Source: Dehalococcoides mccartyi 195 (GTDB lineage Bacteria; Chloroflexota; Dehalococcoidia; Dehalococcoidales; Dehalococcoidaceae). From it: a stretch of 64,000 nt of DNA. Under the pieces are notes generated by a model. That model saw only the letters and a program-made list of their open reading frames with translations, was not told where the DNA came from and made no database searches. Shown piece by piece: positions 41,258 to 51,086 of the stretch (the first letter of the stretch is position 1; every line of letters starts with the position of its first letter). Location of the stretch: NCBI RefSeq assembly GCF_000011905.1, contig NC_002936.3, positions 124,001-188,000 of the forward strand, in the 5' to 3' direction. Both the position numbers and the translations under genes were made by a program.

Positions 41258-41956
41258 TTAGGAAGAAGATTCCGCTTTGGGCGAATCCTGGCAGATAAAC
41301 ATATACCCTTTGCCGGGTATATTTATAAGAAACTTGGGGTTGGAAGGGTTGTCTTCAATTTTTTCCCGCAAATGTCTTATATTTACCCTTATTCTCTCGT
41401 AAGCGTTTTCCCCCCAGATTTTTTGAGCTATCGTTTCATTATAAATATAACGTCCGTTGGAACGCATCAGGTAATACAGTATCTGCCCCTCTATATTTGT
41501 CAGGCGTATGGGTTTGTCATTTTTATAGAGTTTGGTTACTGACTGGCCGAAATGGAATGGGCCGCATTCAAATTCCAAATCAACTTCGGGTGAATGCAAA
41601 CGCCTGCTTATAGCTTTGATACGGGCGAGTAGCTCCATCTGGCGGAATGGTTTGACCAGGTAATCATCCGCTCCCAGGGAAAGTGCCTTCACAATGTCGC
41701 TCTCCTCATTCCGAATAGTCAGAATAATCACCGGTAACTCAGAAAAGAGCCGGATTTGCCTTAGCACTTCATAGCCGCTGATATCCGGCAAGCCGATATC
41801 AAGAATAATGGCATCAGGCTTGGCTGTTTCCACCATGGCCAGGCCGCTTTCACCGGAACTGGCTTCCAGCAAACGCACATCCGGCCAGCCGAGTTTAAAA
41901 GACAGCTTCACAATTTCGGTTGTTTGGGCATCATCCTCAATTATTAGTATCTTCAT
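41258..41956 (-). CDS. OmpR-family response regulator next to rdhA
   Basis: A 232-residue regulator from ATG 41956 (an earlier ATG at 41977 overlaps the kinase gene). Receiver: LIIEDDAQT, Asp in AIILDIGLPDISG, ILTIRNEE, YLVKPFRQMEL. DNA-binding domain: IRLTNIEGQILYYLMRSNGRYIYNETIAQKIWG and YERIRVNIRHLREKIE. It is encoded with the PAS kinase, divergent from the rdhA at 43859, and very likely controls that operon. Rdh-linked two-component systems are common in this genus. Confidence 0.9.
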   Translation of the reverse strand: MKILIIEDDAQTTEIVKLSFKLGWPDVRLLEASSGESGLAMVETAKPDAIILDIGLPDISGYEVLRQIRLFSELPVIILTIRNEESDIVKALSLGADDYLVKPFRQMELLARIKAISRRLHSPEVDLEFECGPFHFGQSVTKLYKNDKPIRLTNIEGQILYYLMRSNGRYIYNETIAQKIWGENAYERIRVNIRHLREKIEDNPSNPKFLINIPGKGYMFICQDSPKAESSS

Positions 41957-41963
41957 GCTCTTC

Positions 41964-43583
41964 TCAACTTCCGCCATTTTGTTTTATGGGTAAAATAATA
42001 TCACAGGTGGTACCGTGGCCTTCCTTGCTGTGTATAGTAATCTGCCCCTGGTGGAGGTCTACAAATGTTTTAGATAGAGCCAGCCCCAAACCAAGCCCCC
42101 CGGAACTTTCCCTGGAAATTAGCCGGTCGTCATATGAGGTCAGCAAGCGCCGCTGTTTTACTTTTGAAATTCCCCGGCCGTTATCTTTTATACAAATAAC
42201 CAGACAGCGGCCTTTTTGGAATACGCTCATTTTGATAAAGCCGCCCTGGGAAGTAAATTTCAGGGCGTTTCCCAAGATATTCATCACAATTTGTTTAAAC
42301 CTGACCGGGTCAACCTCAATTAACGGCAGGTTCGGTTGGAAACCGGCTTCAAGAGTTTGATTTTTAGCCTGTGCCTGGGGGCGTATGAATTCTATAATAT
42401 CCCCCAATAACCTGGTGCAGTCAATGCTTTCAGTATTCAGTGAAAGTATGCCCAGCTCCCCCCTGACCAGGTCAAACAGGTCGTTCATCCTGTTGTTAAG
42501 CTCTTCAGCCCCTTTATTTATCTGGCTGGCCAATTCATGCGAAATATCGGGCGGCAGCATTTTTATCAGCATATCACTGGCGGCTATTATGGGAGTAAGG
42601 GGAGTTTTTAATTCATGTACCAGAATGCGGGTGAATTCTGCCCGTTTCTGAGATTCGTTTTCCAGCCGGGTATTGAGCAACTTTTCCCGCTCGTACATAT
42701 TTTTCAGTTTTATTTCATATTCTTTGCGTAAAGATATATCACGGATAACAGATAATATTACCGGTTTGCCATTTAACTCAAAGCGCAGTCCGCTTACTTC
42801 GTTTTGCATAATCTTGCCGGACTTTGACTGATGCAGGAGTTCATAAGTCGCTCCATCTTCCTTGTTGACAGTGGCTTTGGTTCCGGCCAGAAACTTGGCT
42901 TTGCTCTCCTTGGAGTTGGGCTGGAAAAAATCAGCATATTTACCGAACATTTCCTGCCGGGTGTACTCAAACCGCTGGCAGGCCATGTCGTTTACTTCAA
43001 TTATCTTAAAGCCTTCTTTATGGGCATCCCATTCCCAGAGGATTATGGCATCACGGGCTTTATTAAATATGGTGCGGAATTTTTTCTCGCTCTCGTATAG
43101 AGCTTTTTCGGTAAGGGTTTGCCTTTCAATCAGGGTCTGTATAAGTTTATTAAAGGTAACCGCCTCATCTGTTTTTTGTCTGGCAATCTCTTTGAGATGG
43201 GGCTGGGGTGTTACGGTATTAACTTGAGTAATCTGCTCACTGTCTGCCTTGTTTAAAAAGGCACAGTCATAGTCTGTATCGGAATATCTTAAATATGAAT
43301 CATTTATGTTTACCGGGATTTTATGGCCTGATTTTGACAATAAAATGGCTGACCTGATATTAGCGCCTGACTTTTTCAGCCTGTTCCAGTAACTTTCCCA
43401 CTGGGGGCGGCTGAAATCCGAAGAAATCTGGCAGATATCCAACTGGGCCAGTTCTTTGGCACTGTAACCGGTCATTTTGGTGAAGGCTTTATTTGAATAC
43501 ACCACTTCCCCCCGGTTGTTTAACCAGTAAACGGCCACCGGAGCGCTATCCAGTGCTAACTTGCCTACAGAATTGAACATCAA
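41964..43583 (-). CDS. PAS-domain sensor histidine kinase linked to rdhA
   Basis: A 539-residue soluble kinase. The first PAS domain covers residues about 10-120 (APVAYWLNNRGEVVYSNKAF), a second about 165-290, then HisKA with the phospho-acceptor His in FTRILVHELKTPLTPIIAAS and HATPase with NILGNALKF, DNGRGIS and GLGLGLALSKTFV. There is no membrane segment, so the signal is cytoplasmic. It overlaps the response-regulator frame and is divergent from rdhA, so it probably senses a halogenated substrate or redox state. Confidence 0.9.
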   Translation of the reverse strand: MMFNSVGKLALDSAPVAVYWLNNRGEVVYSNKAFTKMTGYSAKELAQLDICQISSDFSRPQWESYWNRLKKSGANIRSAILLSKSGHKIPVNINDSYLRYSDTDYDCAFLNKADSEQITQVNTVTPQPHLKEIARQKTDEAVTFNKLIQTLIERQTLTEKALYESEKKFRTIFNKARDAIILWEWDAHKEGFKIIEVNDMACQRFEYTRQEMFGKYADFFQPNSKESKAKFLAGTKATVNKEDGATYELLHQSKSGKIMQNEVSGLRFELNGKPVILSVIRDISLRKEYEIKLKNMYEREKLLNTRLENESQKRAEFTRILVHELKTPLTPIIAASDMLIKMLPPDISHELASQINKGAEELNNRMNDLFDLVRGELGILSLNTESIDCTRLLGDIIEFIRPQAQAKNQTLEAGFQPNLPLIEVDPVRFKQIVMNILGNALKFTSQGGFIKMSVFQKGRCLVICIKDNGRGISKVKQRRLLTSYDDRLISRESSGGLGLGLALSKTFVDLHQGQITIHSKEGHGTTCDIILPIKQNGGS

Positions 43584-43858: not shown

Positions 43859-45391
43859 ATGAGTAAATTTCACAGTGCAGTAACTCGTCGTGATTTTATG
43901 AAAGGGCTTGGTTTAGCCGGAGCGGGTATTGGTACTGCGGCTGCCGTGTCCCCCTTGTATCGTGATCTAGATGAAATGATCGGTTCGAAAACCGCCCAGT
44001 GGAAACGTCCCTGGTGGGTAAAGGAACTCGAACTGGAAGAGCCTACCACTGAAATAGACTGGGATATGGTTGAGAGATTTGATGCCCGCTACTCAGCCCA
44101 CTCACCAGCTGAAGTATGCCGCTTTGTAGGATTGGATGAGTATAACAGGGTGAGAGCCTTATCTAACGCCAAGCAGGATATGCTTGATAATAAGCCCGGT
44201 TCAACCCTGCGGGATAATGCTTTAAATATCGGAGCCGGTACCGGTCAGTATATGAGCGGTTATAAAACTGATTACGTTTTCCCGGCCGCCGGGACTTGCT
44301 GCGGTTCTTTCTCCGTATATTGGACCGGACAGAAAGGTGTTGCTACCCCGGAAAGCATGGGTGTACCTAAGTGGTCCGGTACGCCTGAAGAAAATACCCA
44401 GATGGTACGGGCTGCCATGCGCTTCTTCGGTGCTACCGACGTATCCGTAGGTGAACTGAACGAACGGACCAAGAAATTTGTTTCCACCTATCCCCAGGGC
44501 GGTGACGTCAAATATCTGGATAACTGGCCGCCTCCGGATACCTACATCAAGAAGATTGTCTTTGAAGATGTTGACCAGGGTTATTCCACTGATACCAAAT
44601 ATGTCATTCCCAATAAACCCCTCTACTGCATAACCTATACTGTACCCATGTCAAAAGACCTCTTCAGGACTGGCCCCGGTTCCCAGCTGCGCTCAGCGGC
44701 CAATATCAGCCGCTACCGCCTGCGGGCAGCCATTGATACCTGTACCAAAGGTTTCCTGACTGCTTTGGGTTATCAGGGTCTGGAAGAGCCGTATCCTTGC
44801 TTCCCGTCACAGGCCGGTGCTGTACTGGACGGCCTGGCTAAAATGGGACGCAACTCAAACGTCTGCATCAGCCCCGAATACGGCAGTGTTCACGGCTATT
44901 TTGATATCATAACCGACTTGCCTATGGCACCCACTCACCCCATAGATGCCGGTATATTCCGTTTCTGCCATACCTGCCACAAATGCGCTGATGAATGCCC
45001 TGCCAAATGTATTGACCAGGGTTCAGAACCGACCTGGGATTTCCCGGCCAGCATGTACAAACCCGAAATGCCGGTAGATTACCATGCCCCCGGCAAGCGT
45101 TTGTTCTGGAATGACCCCATCGCCTGCCAGATGTATTCAAACTCGGTGGCTGGTGCTTGCGGTGTCTGTATGGCTACCTGTACCTTCAATACCAACGGCG
45201 CTTCCATGATACATGATGTAGTCAAGGCTACTTTGGCCAAGACATCTCTGCTCAACGGCTTCCTCTGGAATGCTGATAAAGCTTTCGGCTACGGTTTGGT
45301 TGAGGGTGACGAGAAAGAGAAGTTCTGGGAGATTGGTCTGCCTGCTTACGGCTTTGATACTACAGTCGGCTCAACGGTGGGCGGTTACTAA
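43859..45391 (+). CDS. rdhA: Reductive dehalogenase catalytic subunit RdhA
   Basis: A 510-residue corrinoid iron-sulphur reductive dehalogenase. The Tat signal TRRDFMKGLGLAGAGIG is followed by the conserved RPWWVKELELEEPTTEIDWD. Two ferredoxin-type sites are present: FCHTCHKCADECPAKCID and CQMYSN...GACGVCMATCTF. The mature enzyme removes halogens from an organohalide electron acceptor outside the membrane, bound via RdhB. The ATG at 43859 has AAGGAAGG upstream. A small lipoprotein gene separates it from rdhB. The substrate cannot be predicted from sequence. Confidence 0.95.
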   Translation: MSKFHSAVTRRDFMKGLGLAGAGIGTAAAVSPLYRDLDEMIGSKTAQWKRPWWVKELELEEPTTEIDWDMVERFDARYSAHSPAEVCRFVGLDEYNRVRALSNAKQDMLDNKPGSTLRDNALNIGAGTGQYMSGYKTDYVFPAAGTCCGSFSVYWTGQKGVATPESMGVPKWSGTPEENTQMVRAAMRFFGATDVSVGELNERTKKFVSTYPQGGDVKYLDNWPPPDTYIKKIVFEDVDQGYSTDTKYVIPNKPLYCITYTVPMSKDLFRTGPGSQLRSAANISRYRLRAAIDTCTKGFLTALGYQGLEEPYPCFPSQAGAVLDGLAKMGRNSNVCISPEYGSVHGYFDIITDLPMAPTHPIDAGIFRFCHTCHKCADECPAKCIDQGSEPTWDFPASMYKPEMPVDYHAPGKRLFWNDPIACQMYSNSVAGACGVCMATCTFNTNGASMIHDVVKATLAKTSLLNGFLWNADKAFGYGLVEGDEKEKFWEIGLPAYGFDTTVGSTVGGY

Positions 45392-46108: not shown

Positions 46109-46789
46109 TTATTCGGCCAGGGACAGCCGGTATCCTATGCCGGCCTCGTTTTTGATTATGCACCCGGCCTTCAGGTTTTTTTCTATCTTCAGGCGCAACC
46201 GGGATATGTAAACCCGTATGCTTTCATCTGAACCGGGGTAGGCGTGCCCCCAGAGGGCATCAGATATATCCCGGTAGTCCACTATCTGCCCGTTCCTCTG
46301 CAGCAGCAGGCTCATAATCATGGTTTCTACTCTGGTCAGGAATACCCGGTCATTCCGGAACGAAAGTTCATGCTTGGCACAGTCAATGGTAATATCCCCG
46401 GATTTTATTATGGCCGTATTTTGGCTGATATTTTTAGATAAGGCTTTTTTAACTCTGGCCAGAAATTCAAGATGGCGGAATGGTTTAGTAATATATTCGT
46501 CTGCTCCTTGTTCCAGAGCTTTTAAAACATTTTCCTCGTCTTCACAGGCGGTGACCACAATAATAGGGGCACCGGTAATCGGGTGTATTTCGTCCAGAAC
46601 CTTCAGGCCGTTCATATCCGGCAGCCCCAGGTCCAGCAGAACCAAGTCAGCCTTGTCGGAGTTTACGCTTTCTACCGCCTCATAACCGGTACGGCAAACA
46701 GTAATTTTGGCGTCATGGTAAGATAGTCTTAAGATAGAGCTTATGGTTGAGGCAGCCGCGTCATTATCTTCAACTATTAGAATGTTCAT
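46109..46789 (-). CDS. OmpR-family response regulator
   Basis: A 226-residue regulator. Receiver: LIVEDNDAA, Asp in LVLLDLGLPDMNG, VVTACEDEE, YITKPFRHLEF. DNA-binding domain: FLTRVETMIMSLLLQRNGQIVDYRDISDALWG and SDESIRVYISRLRLKIEKN. It overlaps the upstream kinase gene by 20 bp, so the two form one unit with the B12-domain-like gene. The most likely target is the divergent rdhA at 49382. Confidence 0.9.
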   Translation of the reverse strand: MNILIVEDNDAAASTISSILRLSYHDAKITVCRTGYEAVESVNSDKADLVLLDLGLPDMNGLKVLDEIHPITGAPIIVVTACEDEENVLKALEQGADEYITKPFRHLEFLARVKKALSKNISQNTAIIKSGDITIDCAKHELSFRNDRVFLTRVETMIMSLLLQRNGQIVDYRDISDALWGHAYPGSDESIRVYISRLRLKIEKNLKAGCIIKNEAGIGYRLSLAE

Positions 46790-48560
46790 TTACTATCCTG
46801 AGGTCAGAAAGTTCGTTTTCGGATATGGTTTTAAGAGGTATGGTGAAAGCAAATTCGCTGCCTTTAGGTTCTGCCGGGTTATAAGTAATCTGGCCGCCAT
46901 GGGCTTCAACATAGAGTTTGGCAATAGGCAGCCCTAGTCCCAGACCGCTGAGGTTATTCCCGCCGCTGAGTTTGCCGTATTCGGTAAAAAGGTCGGGAAT
47001 CATGCAGGCGGATACGCCCGCACCGCTGTCAGTTACCCTGAAACGTAAAAATCCTTTTTCTACCCCGGCGGCAACTGATACGCTGTCCTCTGCCTTGGTA
47101 TACTTTAAGGCGTTGTCTATCAGGTTGGTCAGTATCTGCAGCAGGCGTTCCTTGTCACAATATATATAAGCCTTAGGTGTTTCATCACAAAAGGTAAGGT
47201 GTTTATGCTGTTTTTGAAAGATGGGCGTATAACGCATTTGCAGTTCGTCCAGGATATCCTCAACGGAATACTGGGCCATTTTCAGTTTCAGCATGCCTAT
47301 TTTGCCGCGTTCAAGTTCAATCAAATCGTGAATGCGGTTGTTTAAAGTCTCTGCCCCTTCGCGGATACTGCTGGCCAGATTATACAGTTCGGTGCCTTTT
47401 TCAGATACATTTACCAGAGCGTCGCTGGCGGCCAGCAGCGGGGTCAGGGGGGTTCTGATTTCATGCACCAGTGCCTTAAGGTGGGCTTGCCGTTTCTTGG
47501 TTTCGTCCTGTAAAGCCTGTCTGAGCAGGCATTCTTTGGTATAGCTTTCGGCTATAGATTTTTCGGAGGTCTTTACCTTGGTAATATCTTCCATCCGCCC
47601 GCAGATGCTGGATATAGAGCAGCTATCATCATAAGATACCCAGAGTATCTCTTTTATCCAGGTGGATTGGCCGTCCTGAATAATCTCGTACTCAGTGGTC
47701 AAAGAAGAGCGGTTGGCAAAGCGTTTGCATTTGTCCAGATACAGTCCCCGTTGTTTCAGCAGGCAGTCAAAGTCTATTACCTTAAAACTGCTGTCAGTCT
47801 GATGTCCCAGGATAAATTCCAGCAGCTTTTCGCATATCTGGTTGGGGGTGGTGGGGGCGACATACGGGCTGAATACCAGATTGTCATGTTTATCCAGAAT
47901 GTACAGGTATTCATCTGAATTGTGGAAAGAGAACGGGAAAATCAGCCGGCGGGTTGCGTCTTCTTCATAACTGGCAAGCTGTATCTTGGCATAAGCCTGG
48001 TCAAGTTTATCTTCTAAAAAGTGGGGCTGGGGGTTAAGTACCTCCACCGAGTAGTCAAGAGCGGTAACACTTTTAAGTTTGTTTACATAACTAGCGGCTT
48101 TTTCTTCTTCGCCATTTTCCAGAATAAAGGTTATGGGGGCAGGGTAGAGACCCGTTTCAACCGGTTGCATAACCTCCAGGGTGGGCATATTCTGCCAGCA
48201 GGTCATAGTGGTAGGATTGCGGAAGATATGCCCCTGTTCTATCCGTTCCTGGTAGATAGCTGTGCCTATGGCTGCTTCGTAACAATTGTCCAGCTCTACT
48301 ACGGATAACCTGCCGGCATAATGGTCTTTAAGCTGGCTGATAGATTCGTTGCACATACCATAGTTTAAAATGCAGTAGCCGTTTTCCAGAATTGCCCTTT
48401 CAATATAATAAGAGAGCATCTCTATTTTTACACTGTAAAAGCAGAAATTGGTTATGGGGTAAATACGTACGTCCAGATTCCTGTGCTGAGCCCAGTTTTT
48501 CACGAAGTTACTCATGCTCACGCAGGTGACTATTCCAACCTTGTTATTTTCAGTCTTCAT
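46770..48560 (-). CDS. Sensor histidine kinase with possible DUF1638-type sensory domain
   Basis: A 596-residue soluble kinase. Residues about 1-175 (YCILNYGMCNESISQL, VVELDNCYEAAIG, IFRNPTTMTCW) resemble the DUF1638 family, whose genes often sit beside corrinoid methyltransferases; this match is tentative. A PAS-like domain (about 215-335) follows, then HisKA with HLKALVHEIRTPLTPLL and HATPase with NLIDNALKY, DSGAGVS and GLGLGLPIAKLYV. It overlaps the genes on both sides (11 and 20 bp), so the three proteins probably work together. Confidence 0.85.
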   Translation of the reverse strand: MKTENNKVGIVTCVSMSNFVKNWAQHRNLDVRIYPITNFCFYSVKIEMLSYYIERAILENGYCILNYGMCNESISQLKDHYAGRLSVVELDNCYEAAIGTAIYQERIEQGHIFRNPTTMTCWQNMPTLEVMQPVETGLYPAPITFILENGEEEKAASYVNKLKSVTALDYSVEVLNPQPHFLEDKLDQAYAKIQLASYEEDATRRLIFPFSFHNSDEYLYILDKHDNLVFSPYVAPTTPNQICEKLLEFILGHQTDSSFKVIDFDCLLKQRGLYLDKCKRFANRSSLTTEYEIIQDGQSTWIKEILWVSYDDSCSISSICGRMEDITKVKTSEKSIAESYTKECLLRQALQDETKKRQAHLKALVHEIRTPLTPLLAASDALVNVSEKGTELYNLASSIREGAETLNNRIHDLIELERGKIGMLKLKMAQYSVEDILDELQMRYTPIFQKQHKHLTFCDETPKAYIYCDKERLLQILTNLIDNALKYTKAEDSVSVAAGVEKGFLRFRVTDSGAGVSACMIPDLFTEYGKLSGGNNLSGLGLGLPIAKLYVEAHGGQITYNPAEPKGSEFAFTIPLKTISENELSDLRIVNEHSNS

Positions 48561-49143
48561 TTGGTAAATCCTCGCTAAGTTTGCAGATAAGCTCCCGGAG
48601 TGATTCCGGGAAATAACAAAAAGAGAGCCTGTCTTTGTTCTGGTGCTGGTAGATAAAGGGTACGCCCCCCGCTATGACACCCAGCCCGGCGTCTTTGAAA
48701 CAAGATTGCAGTTTCGCCAGTTTATCAATATGGTGAAACAGGGTCAGGCTGACAACAGCCTTTGGATAAATCTGCCCGGCCATCTGCCGGATGTTGTGTT
48801 CGTCAAGCTCCAGTACCAGCGGCCTGAATCCGTTCAGTTTAAGATAGGCTTTCAGCAGGGTAATACCCGGCGGGATATAGGATACAGGGCTGAATATGGC
48901 TACAGGAGCGCAATCACGGTCTATTATCTGAGCTTCTTCGGCTTTATTTTGGATTATGCCGATAAGATTCCTGGCCTCGTTATGCTGAATCAAGCCCTGT
49001 TTGTAGTCGTCAAACATCTGTTCAGCCAGATCAATCAGCTTCGCAGTTTCCGAAGGGAGAACAGCGCGAATGGCTTTTTCAAGTTCAGCGGATTGGGTTC
49101 TGGTAATCATACTGCTTTCTGACAGTAAATTCTGATATGCCAT
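48550..49143 (-). CDS. B12-binding-domain-like protein coupled to the kinase
   Basis: A 197-residue protein. An N-terminal helical half (SAELEKAIRAVLPSETAKLIDLAEQMF) precedes an alpha/beta half whose order of strands resembles the cobalamin-binding fold (VAIFSPVSYIPPGITLLKAYLKLNGFRPLVLELDE, then AVVSLTLFHHIDKLAKL and GLGVIAGGVPF). The DxHxxG lower-ligand motif is absent. In corrinoid-sensing regulators a similar two-part domain binds B12. The overlap with the kinase gene suggests an input partner for it. The fold assignment is by eye. Confidence 0.55.
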   Translation of the reverse strand: MAYQNLLSESSMITRTQSAELEKAIRAVLPSETAKLIDLAEQMFDDYKQGLIQHNEARNLIGIIQNKAEEAQIIDRDCAPVAIFSPVSYIPPGITLLKAYLKLNGFRPLVLELDEHNIRQMAGQIYPKAVVSLTLFHHIDKLAKLQSCFKDAGLGVIAGGVPFIYQHQNKDRLSFCYFPESLRELICKLSEDLPNED

Positions 49144-49381
49144 ATTTCCATTTTATATCTATTAATCTGGTAATACAATGCACCCCCGCACGTTTAGGTA
49201 GGGTGTAACAGAACTGATACAGGGTATTACTGATTAGTATCCACTAGTTATTGAGTGTTAGATACGTGATGTAATACCATGCATTTAACACCACTTTAGG
49301 ACAAGGGCGACGCGCGCAATCTGCCTGGGGCCTATTTTGCAATTAAATCTTACATAGAAAGGTAAACAAAAGGGTCAGGAC
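49144..49381 (+). promoter_or_regulatory. Divergent control region of the second core rdhA operon
   Basis: Contains TTAACACCA (49285-49293) and GTGTTA (near 49255), motifs shared with the other rdhA control region at 43695-43765. No clear sigma-70 promoter is evident. Likely binding region for the flanking response regulator. Confidence 0.4.
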
Positions 49382-50749
49382 ATGGATGGAAAAATAAACC
49401 GCCGTGATTTTGTAAAAGGTGCGGGTATTGCATCTGCTGCCACCGTTGCCACTATCATGGCAACAGCTTCAACTGTATCCGCTGAGGAACTGGTTAATCC
49501 GAGTATCAAAGCTATGGATGAAATGGGAAGTGCCTCCCTTACCCGGGACCTGCCGGAAAGTTTTTACAAAAGAATTGAAAACAAGGACGGCTATATAGGT
49601 ACTACCAGAGTTATTGCCCCTACTCAAAGACTTGATGCCCGTGAACATGGTTTTTCCCAGATAGTCCGGCGCGGCTCAACCGGTGACTGGTCAGGTGAAC
49701 CCGGAGACTGGGGACCGGTGCTGTTTGCGGCTGTTCAGGAAAAAAAGAAACACGCAGCTGAAATTACCCCTTTGGAAGCGGCTGATTATACCTGGAGTAA
49801 TGCTTTCCAGATTGCTATGGACAGGTGGCATATTACCCTTGAGCCGGGTCGGTATCAGCAGGCACCTATAGCCGCCACTAAGGTTGAGCTTTCTCCCGAA
49901 GAAATGACAGCCCGCATAAAGAAAATCTGCCGCTGGTTTGGCTGTGAGCAGGTGGGTATCTGCGAAGTAACTGAAGATATGAAACCTTTCTTCTACAGCG
50001 TTGGCAGAACCAAGGGTACTTATACCACCGGACATGCGAATTATGTAGATGAGGGCCGTGAAATACCCTGGCCGTATCCCTACAAATACTGCATTGTCAT
50101 GGCTGACAAATGTGATACCGATACTCTAAGTGCCATGACCGGACCTCTGGTTGAGGCCAGTGCCAAAATAGCCTGTTCCCAATCGGACTTTGCTCCCCAT
50201 TATCTGGAATCCATAATCCGCTCACTGGGACATGATGCTAAGGCCAATATCTTTAGCGATACTGATATTATGGATACCCCCTTTGCAGTCAAAGCCGGTC
50301 TGGGTGAACTGGGCAGGAGCGGCCTGGTGATTTCACCCTGGGGCGCCCAGATGAGAATCATGGAAGTCTTTACCAACTTGCCGCTGGTTCCGGATAAGCC
50401 CATAGATTTTGGCCTTCAGGAATTCTGCAAGGTCTGCAAGAAGTGTGCTGATAATTGTCCTGCCAGTGCTATTTCCATGGATGACGAACCCAGCGAAGTG
50501 GATACGGTAGTCAAGTCTATCCGCTGGTTCCAGGATGGCAAAAAATGTTTGTCCCAAAGGTTGGCTTATGGCTGTTCCAAGTGCCAGAGCGTCTGCCCCT
50601 GGTCTAAACCTGATACCCTGATTCACGAAATAGGGCGTATGGTAGGCCAGAACCCGGCCTTTGCCCCGTTCCTGGTTAAGCTGGATGACTTCTTCTATAA
50701 CCGCTATCCTGAAGGGCATGCAACCGGTGAATGGGCTCCCTGGAGATAG
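49382..50749 (+). CDS. rdhA: Reductive dehalogenase catalytic subunit RdhA
   Basis: A 455-residue RdhA with the Tat signal NRRDFVKGAGIASAATVATIM. The two ferredoxin-type motifs are FCKVCKKCADNCPASAI and, after a Cys in KKCLSQ, YGCSKCQSVCPWSKP. This is clearly diverged from the other two RdhA proteins in the window (no RPWWVKE block, shorter). The likely role is reductive dehalogenation outside the membrane with a corrinoid cofactor. It is followed 49 bp later by rdhB. From memory it resembles the widely conserved cbdbA187/DET0180 type; unverified. Confidence 0.94.
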   Translation: MDGKINRRDFVKGAGIASAATVATIMATASTVSAEELVNPSIKAMDEMGSASLTRDLPESFYKRIENKDGYIGTTRVIAPTQRLDAREHGFSQIVRRGSTGDWSGEPGDWGPVLFAAVQEKKKHAAEITPLEAADYTWSNAFQIAMDRWHITLEPGRYQQAPIAATKVELSPEEMTARIKKICRWFGCEQVGICEVTEDMKPFFYSVGRTKGTYTTGHANYVDEGREIPWPYPYKYCIVMADKCDTDTLSAMTGPLVEASAKIACSQSDFAPHYLESIIRSLGHDAKANIFSDTDIMDTPFAVKAGLGELGRSGLVISPWGAQMRIMEVFTNLPLVPDKPIDFGLQEFCKVCKKCADNCPASAISMDDEPSEVDTVVKSIRWFQDGKKCLSQRLAYGCSKCQSVCPWSKPDTLIHEIGRMVGQNPAFAPFLVKLDDFFYNRYPEGHATGEWAPWR

Positions 50750-50798: not shown

Positions 50799-51086
50799 AT
50801 GACAGCAATTATCTTTTTGTTCGGCTTGCTTGTCGGTATATTCGGCAGTTGGCTGTGGCATGCCGCCAAGGAACATAATATAAAACTTATCTGGGTAGAT
50901 TACCTGATGATGGCTTTGTTTGTTTTGCTGGTTGGCAGCGGTATCGTCTTTGTTAATACATTTAACGAAGAATCGGTGGCCAGTGCCGCCCGCAGTTCCG
51001 GTCTGATATTCGGTTTGCTGGCTTTGCTGGTGCTGGGTATAACCTGGCAGCTTATCTGGCGGCGTAACCGCAAATCAGGCATTTAA
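50799..51086 (+). CDS. rdhB: Reductive dehalogenase anchor RdhB
   Basis: A 95-residue membrane protein with three hydrophobic helices (about 3-20, 31-50, 66-87). It shows the WVDYL motif in place of WYEW before the second helix. AAAGGAG precedes the ATG by about 9 bases. It anchors the RdhA encoded upstream. A terminator follows at 51107-51146. Confidence 0.9.
   Translation: MTAIIFLFGLLVGIFGSWLWHAAKEHNIKLIWVDYLMMALFVLLVGSGIVFVNTFNEESVASAARSSGLIFGLLALLVLGITWQLIWRRNRKSGI

Follow-up and report, generated by a model that had tools for sequence, protein, structure and literature searches.

The window, a 64,000-nucleotide stretch of Dehalococcoides mccartyi 195 DNA, contains three overlapping genes on the minus strand, and their open reading frames lie exactly at 46109-46789, 46770-48560 and 48550-49143. 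The first encodes an OmpR/PhoB-type response regulator (226 aa) with a receiver and a winged-helix DNA-binding domain; the second encodes a histidine kinase (596 aa) composed of DUF1638, PAS-like, HisKA and HATPase_c regions; and the third, ORF3, encodes a 197-aa protein with a degenerate helical cap and B12-binding domain from which the cobalt-ligating His is absent. The kinase gene overlaps the regulator gene by 20 bases and ORF3 overlaps the kinase gene by 11 bases. The predicted divergence of this trio from rdhA was found, across a gap of 238 bp: rdhA (49382-50749, plus strand) encodes the catalytic subunit of a reductive dehalogenase, with a Tat signal and Fe-S motifs (TIGR02486, E=3e-57, above cut-off). 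An rdhB-like membrane anchor at 50799-51086 (plus strand) was recognised from its ORF position and small hydrophobic translation, and its orthologues share 79-97% identity. The two rdhA genes of the window are presumably DET0173 and DET0180, and the one at 49382-50749 is probably DET0180. Just upstream, an ordinary PAS-HisKA kinase and an OmpR regulator are divergent from the second rdhA (41258-43583 and 43859-45391), and this system at 41258-43583 is the natural comparison for the DUF1638 system.

The trio is a known kind of system, a two-component system, with an input of a new type. The regulator matches Response_reg (E=3e-25) and Trans_reg_C (E=9e-17), in agreement with the OmpR type assigned to it in the original prediction; the Asp and Lys columns of its receiver are invariant in the alignment, and between species it shows 90-91% identity and a dN/dS of about 0.05. 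The kinase possesses a HisKA dimerisation/phosphoacceptor domain (aa 357-419; 47304-47492, minus strand) with the H-box VHEIRTPLTP and His366, followed by a HATPase_c catalytic domain (aa 469-577; 46830-47156, minus strand). The pair has the composition of an OmpR-class system, namely a HisKA and HATPase_c kinase and a receiver and winged-helix regulator, with the catalytic residues retained.

The N-terminal half of the kinase was assigned through its relatives. A DUF1638 input domain (aa 1-165; 48066-48560, minus strand) was identified from a profile match, the alignment and shared cysteines: the window kinase matches PF07796 over aa 60-126 with E=6e-5 and 23.4 bits, below the Pfam gathering score of 27 bits, and all 12 homologous kinases match the family (best 4e-11), most of them above the Pfam cut-off. 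The predicted resemblance of the N-terminus to DUF1638 is thus borne out by the family. A PAS-like region follows at about aa 210-335 (47556-47933, minus strand), where a profile search found no PAS match in the window kinase itself and PAS_3 was matched by nine of the 12 homologues. Given that 12/12 relatives match DUF1638 and nine match PAS_3, the architecture of the kinase is DUF1638-PAS-HisKA-HATPase. In the open-access literature DUF1638 is mentioned in three papers, none of which concerns a DUF1638 kinase, and no solved structure related to DUF1638 by sequence was found. In Phaeobacter, B12-dependent methionine synthesis requires DUF1638 plus a RamA-like protein (PMC5764234).

Cys13, Cys70 and Cys93 of DUF1638 are present in 12/12 trio-family kinases, in 12-14 of 14 other DUF1638 signalling proteins and in 24-27 of 27 free-standing DUF1638 proteins, and Cys40 is fixed in the trio-family kinases and specific to them. 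Between species, constraint is tighter on the DUF1638 region (dN/dS 0.04-0.07) than on the kinase core (0.11-0.12). Three cysteines across all DUF1638 groups, a fourth fixed in the trio kinases and strong purifying selection would suit a domain whose cysteines bind a metal or Fe-S centre as a gauge of redox state or of the rate of respiration, with ORF3 serving as no more than a structural adaptor. The expression of DET0180 is inverse to respiration rate and high under slow respiration or starvation (PMC4340931), which would also suit such a sensor if the adjoining rdhA is DET0180; this expression fits a status sensor, yet separates none of the models considered here. Redox or metal sensing is an improbable explanation overall, as it leaves unexplained the constant corrinoid-fold partner, which accompanies DUF1638 both in the trio and in the URO-D cassettes described below.

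As a single sequence, ORF3 of the window gave no profile matches, and PF02310 (B12-binding) was matched by three of 13 ORF3 homologues (best 3e-5). A family profile of 13 members, however, aligned with CarH/MerR-type cap and B12 proteins over 160 columns (probability 97.8, E=7e-13) and with the corrinoid proteins of methyltransferase cassettes (probability 95.9, E=6e-9); response-regulator controls in these profile-profile comparisons gave 0.2 and 0.05. When the ORF3 profile was run against 400 genomes of the phylum, all 11 examined matches outside the family were cap and B12 proteins. Homology of ORF3 to PF02310/PF02607 (cap and Rossmann domain) is accordingly seen at the family-profile level only. 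The profile comparison with DUF1638 and B12-binding domains proposed in the original prediction gave matches to both at family level, and it is through family profiles, not via the lone window sequence, that the corrinoid-linked assignments of DUF1638 and ORF3 are firm. A tree test of the nearest relatives of ORF3 favoured the CarH side but did not reject the cassette side (AU p=0.18). AlphaFold models built from single sequences had low confidence (pLDDT 45 and 35) and were uninformative about the folds, the N-terminal helices being the one part of ORF3 placed with moderate confidence, and a scan of IMG/VR with ORF3 gave no matches.

ORF3 had been described in the original prediction as a B12-domain-like protein without DxHxxG, and both parts of that description agree with the family profile. 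The cobalt-ligating His is absent in 13/13 aligned ORF3s, its position being occupied by Ile in the window protein, by Gln in several homologues and by other residues elsewhere. The Gly after the lost His is mostly retained and a later Gly-Gly pair is invariant in the family. The upper-face Glu-His of the CarH cap is also lost, with Trp present in most homologues and Tyr in the window protein. Between species ORF3 has a dN/dS of 0.18-0.21, indicative of purifying selection, which means that it is no chance ORF, yet it is the fastest-evolving part of the trio. Because both the cobalt-ligating His and the CarH upper-face Glu-His are lost, corrinoid binding by ORF3 is not guaranteed. Loss of the His is not decisive, since in RdhA and in radical-SAM B12 proteins corrinoid is bound with no His supplied by the protein.

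An alternative that stands close behind the corrinoid reading, because the cobalt ligand is lost in all ORF3s, is that the folds were co-opted and contact with corrinoid is gone, such that ORF3 and DUF1638 together would recognise an organohalide or other small molecule in the cytoplasm, with a ligand specific to each rdhA-linked copy. This explanation is tentative: the DUF1638 cysteines and the logic of the gene neighbourhood are shared with relatives that handle corrinoid, and the precedents for corrinoid binding without a protein His also count against it. It would, on the other hand, account for the fast divergence of ORF3 among paralogues, which share 14-21% identity with the window copy (its orthologue excepted), as expected of a ligand pocket, and for the adjacency of different copies to different rdhA types. 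It also agrees with the literature, in which the rdh kinases are described as cytoplasmic, with the signal left open and organohalide or redox sensing proposed (PMC13390414).

A survey of other rdhA loci for the trio, as suggested in the original prediction, revealed 17 trio loci across nine Dehalococcoides and Dehalogenimonas genomes (genus names inferred from kinship). Each of the 17 has an rdhA less than 3 kb away, at a distance of 100-2870 bp, where random positions would give at most 2.9/17; several of the loci are orthologues between species and the 17 are thus not fully independent. Ordinary PAS kinases in the genus are also rdhA-linked, so that linkage by itself is no pointer to corrinoid. 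The original prediction would have been refuted by a lack of cobalamin-related genes near homologues, and instead all 17 loci are close to a corrinoid-dependent rdhA; several also have a ribonucleotide reductase of the NrdJ type (adenosylcobalamin-dependent class) nearby (L037:1117-2910, L040:14696-16501, L047:6137-7930 and L050:11460-13241), and distant DUF1638 signalling proteins share operons with intact corrinoid proteins. At L047, L049 and L050, the trio is divergent from a ribonucleotide reductase that adjoins rdhA. Dehalogenimonas genomes have up to 11 NrdJ-type matches each, several of which adjoin rdhA genes.

The source genome contains a further trio, diverged in sequence (L005:4757-7863), which is divergent from another rdhA. 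All three genes are kept at the loci other than L042, L046 and L048 (L049 being outside the regulator count), and at L047 the regulator frame is present and overlaps the end of the kinase. At L042 the kinase is frameshifted, whereas at L046 and L048 ORF3 and DUF1638 remain and the kinase is truncated beside a transposase. This two-ORF transposase (L048:8455-9569 and L046:8582-9696; IS3-like by eye) ends at the DUF1638-kinase break and leaves ORF3 and DUF1638 as a two-gene unit by a disrupted rdhA. Such damage, along with the lack of a URO-D gene in three whole Dehalococcoides genomes, could be taken as a sign of decay, in which an ancestral methyltransferase-based sensor has lost its enzyme and cofactor site and a working kinase carries a vestigial input. 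Decay is highly improbable as an explanation of the trio, given that ORF3 is under purifying selection and DUF1638 under strong purifying selection, and that ORF3 is paired with DUF1638 at every locus, including those where the kinase is cut off.

DUF1638 is also found in corrinoid-handling contexts beyond these genera. Free-standing DUF1638 in Chloroflexota adjoins a RACo-type corrinoid reactivase at 3/3 scanned loci (L189, L191 and L193), and L189 additionally carries a corrinoid protein, a pterin-binding methyltransferase and URO-D. Long DUF1638 proteins are present in other Chloroflexota and in Geobacterales, where 14/14 inspected cassettes at 13 loci follow the order corrinoid protein, URO-D-type methyltransferase, DUF1638 signalling protein; among them are L186, L187 and L188 in Chloroflexota, and L201 and L209-L216 in Geobacterales, with two cassettes in L215. 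The outputs fused to DUF1638 are GAF-GGDEF, HisKA/HATPase, HATPase-receiver hybrids and HisKA_3. The cassette corrinoid proteins match the structures of MtmC and MttC (E about 1e-23), and those that were aligned retain the cobalt His. At the trio loci, neither a methyltransferase gene (URO-D type included) nor one for RACo was detected. No description of the corrinoid-protein/URO-D/DUF1638-output cassette was found in the open-access literature. The claim that no system of the trio's composition has been described stands in so far as none was found in that literature, but this organism is not alone in having such a trio. In L051 (6285-8987), from the order of the window's genome, shortened corrinoid and URO-D genes precede a DUF1638-HisKA_3 kinase, and this cassette may represent an intermediate or may be an artefact of assembly.

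Phylogenetic trees place the DUF1638 and ORF3 sequences of each family in tight clades. A common origin of trio DUF1638 and Geobacterales-cassette DUF1638 is neither established nor rejected (AU p=0.54), and the simple view that trio and Geobacterales cassette go back to one ancestor was set aside, as the trees do not decide it (AU p 0.54 and 0.18).

The 238-bp region that separates the trio from rdhA (49144-49381) contains a block at about 49205-49275 that is nearly identical in three Dehalococcoides genomes. Three copies of GTAATAC, a candidate site for the regulator, lie in this region, at 49170-49176 (plus strand; conserved in L043 and L044), at 49224-49230 in reverse (minus strand) and at 49271-49277 (plus strand), and their positions are conserved across the three genomes; the whole window contains 12 copies on both strands. 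Upstream of the paralogous rdhA, GTAACT-N5-GTAACT, a direct repeat with the 11-bp spacing typical of OmpR sites, is conserved in L042. The lag-11 repeat signal is weak (p 0.01-0.4, four stretches tested), and these repeats are therefore candidate operators only. No cobalamin riboswitch was found near the locus with Rfam, for which a tRNA was the sole match in the window.

The best reading of these homologies and neighbourhoods is that the trio would be a cytoplasmic two-component system whose input reads a corrinoid or corrinoid-bound state and either descends from a methyltransferase-based sensor or is constructed on similar lines. ORF3 may dock on DUF1638, and the signal may be a corrinoid, the redox state of that corrinoid or a ligand attached to it, a proposal given a probability of roughly 45%. 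Under the corrinoid reading, the overlapping trio would act as one two-component system controlling the divergent rdhA, with an input formed by the pair of corrinoid-fold ORF3 and kinase DUF1638 domain. ORF3 would most likely hold a corrinoid base-off, without a protein His, and dock on DUF1638, whose conserved cysteines would read the cobalt or ligand state of the corrinoid. DUF1638 would then alter kinase activity through the PAS linker, and the phosphorylated regulator would act through the GTAATAC repeats that lie between ORF3 and rdhA, thereby coupling production of the dehalogenase to the supply of corrinoid or to some species that is reactive towards it. A broader proposal, more speculative and rather unlikely as a whole, is that of a widespread undescribed signalling class in which a corrinoid-protein/methyltransferase module is the chemosensor and DUF1638 the transducer to a fused kinase or diguanylate cyclase; Dehalococcoides and Dehalogenimonas would have shed the enzyme and the cobalt His and rewired the module to rdhA and nrdJ, so that corrinoid would gate organohalide respiration.

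The trio resembles RdhS/RdhP of Dehalococcoides, Dehalogenimonas and Sulfurospirillum in possessing a kinase and regulator that adjoin rdhA and are proposed to control it, but differs in its DUF1638 and obligate B12-fold partner gene; the comparison kinase in the window (41964-43583) is PAS-type, and the text of a Dehalogenimonas survey makes no mention of DUF1638 or a B12-fold partner (PMC13390414). The alignment of ORF3 with the cobalamin sensors CarH/LitR (MerR-cap-B12) spans both cap and B12 domain, whereas ORF3 lacks the MerR DNA-binding domain, the His ligand and the upper-face Glu-His, and its output would pass via a separate kinase. DUF1638 is common to the trio and to MtmC/MttC-type methyltransferase systems with RACo/RamA; in the trio, however, it is fused to a kinase, methyltransferase and RACo are undetected at the loci and ORF3 has no cobalt ligand. 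The cassettes with DUF1638-HK or DUF1638-GAF-GGDEF likewise combine a B12-fold protein with a DUF1638 signalling protein, but retain the His and the URO-D-type methyltransferase, which the trio does not.

Published proposals for the signal sensed by many rdhA-linked kinases of obligate organohalide respirers are general (organohalides or redox), and the trio singles out a definable kinase subclass for which a particular input can be tested, namely a B12-fold protein together with DUF1638. Dehalococcoides must scavenge its corrinoid, and in bioremediation, for which it is employed, its activity can be limited by the corrinoid available; a corrinoid-gated dehalogenase switch, if true, would therefore matter in practice. 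DUF1638, a domain whose function is unknown but which has been linked to B12 reactivation, gains a signalling role, and the recurrent corrinoid-protein/URO-D/DUF1638-output operon in Geobacterales and Chloroflexota appears to be undescribed.

The rdhA at 49382-50749 is near-identical to a gene in another Dehalococcoides genome (L044:10551-11918; dS 0.12), whereas the kinase, ORF3 and regulator beside it have dS values of 0.67-0.92 against that genome, suggesting that the dehalogenase gene was exchanged by recombination apart from its regulators.
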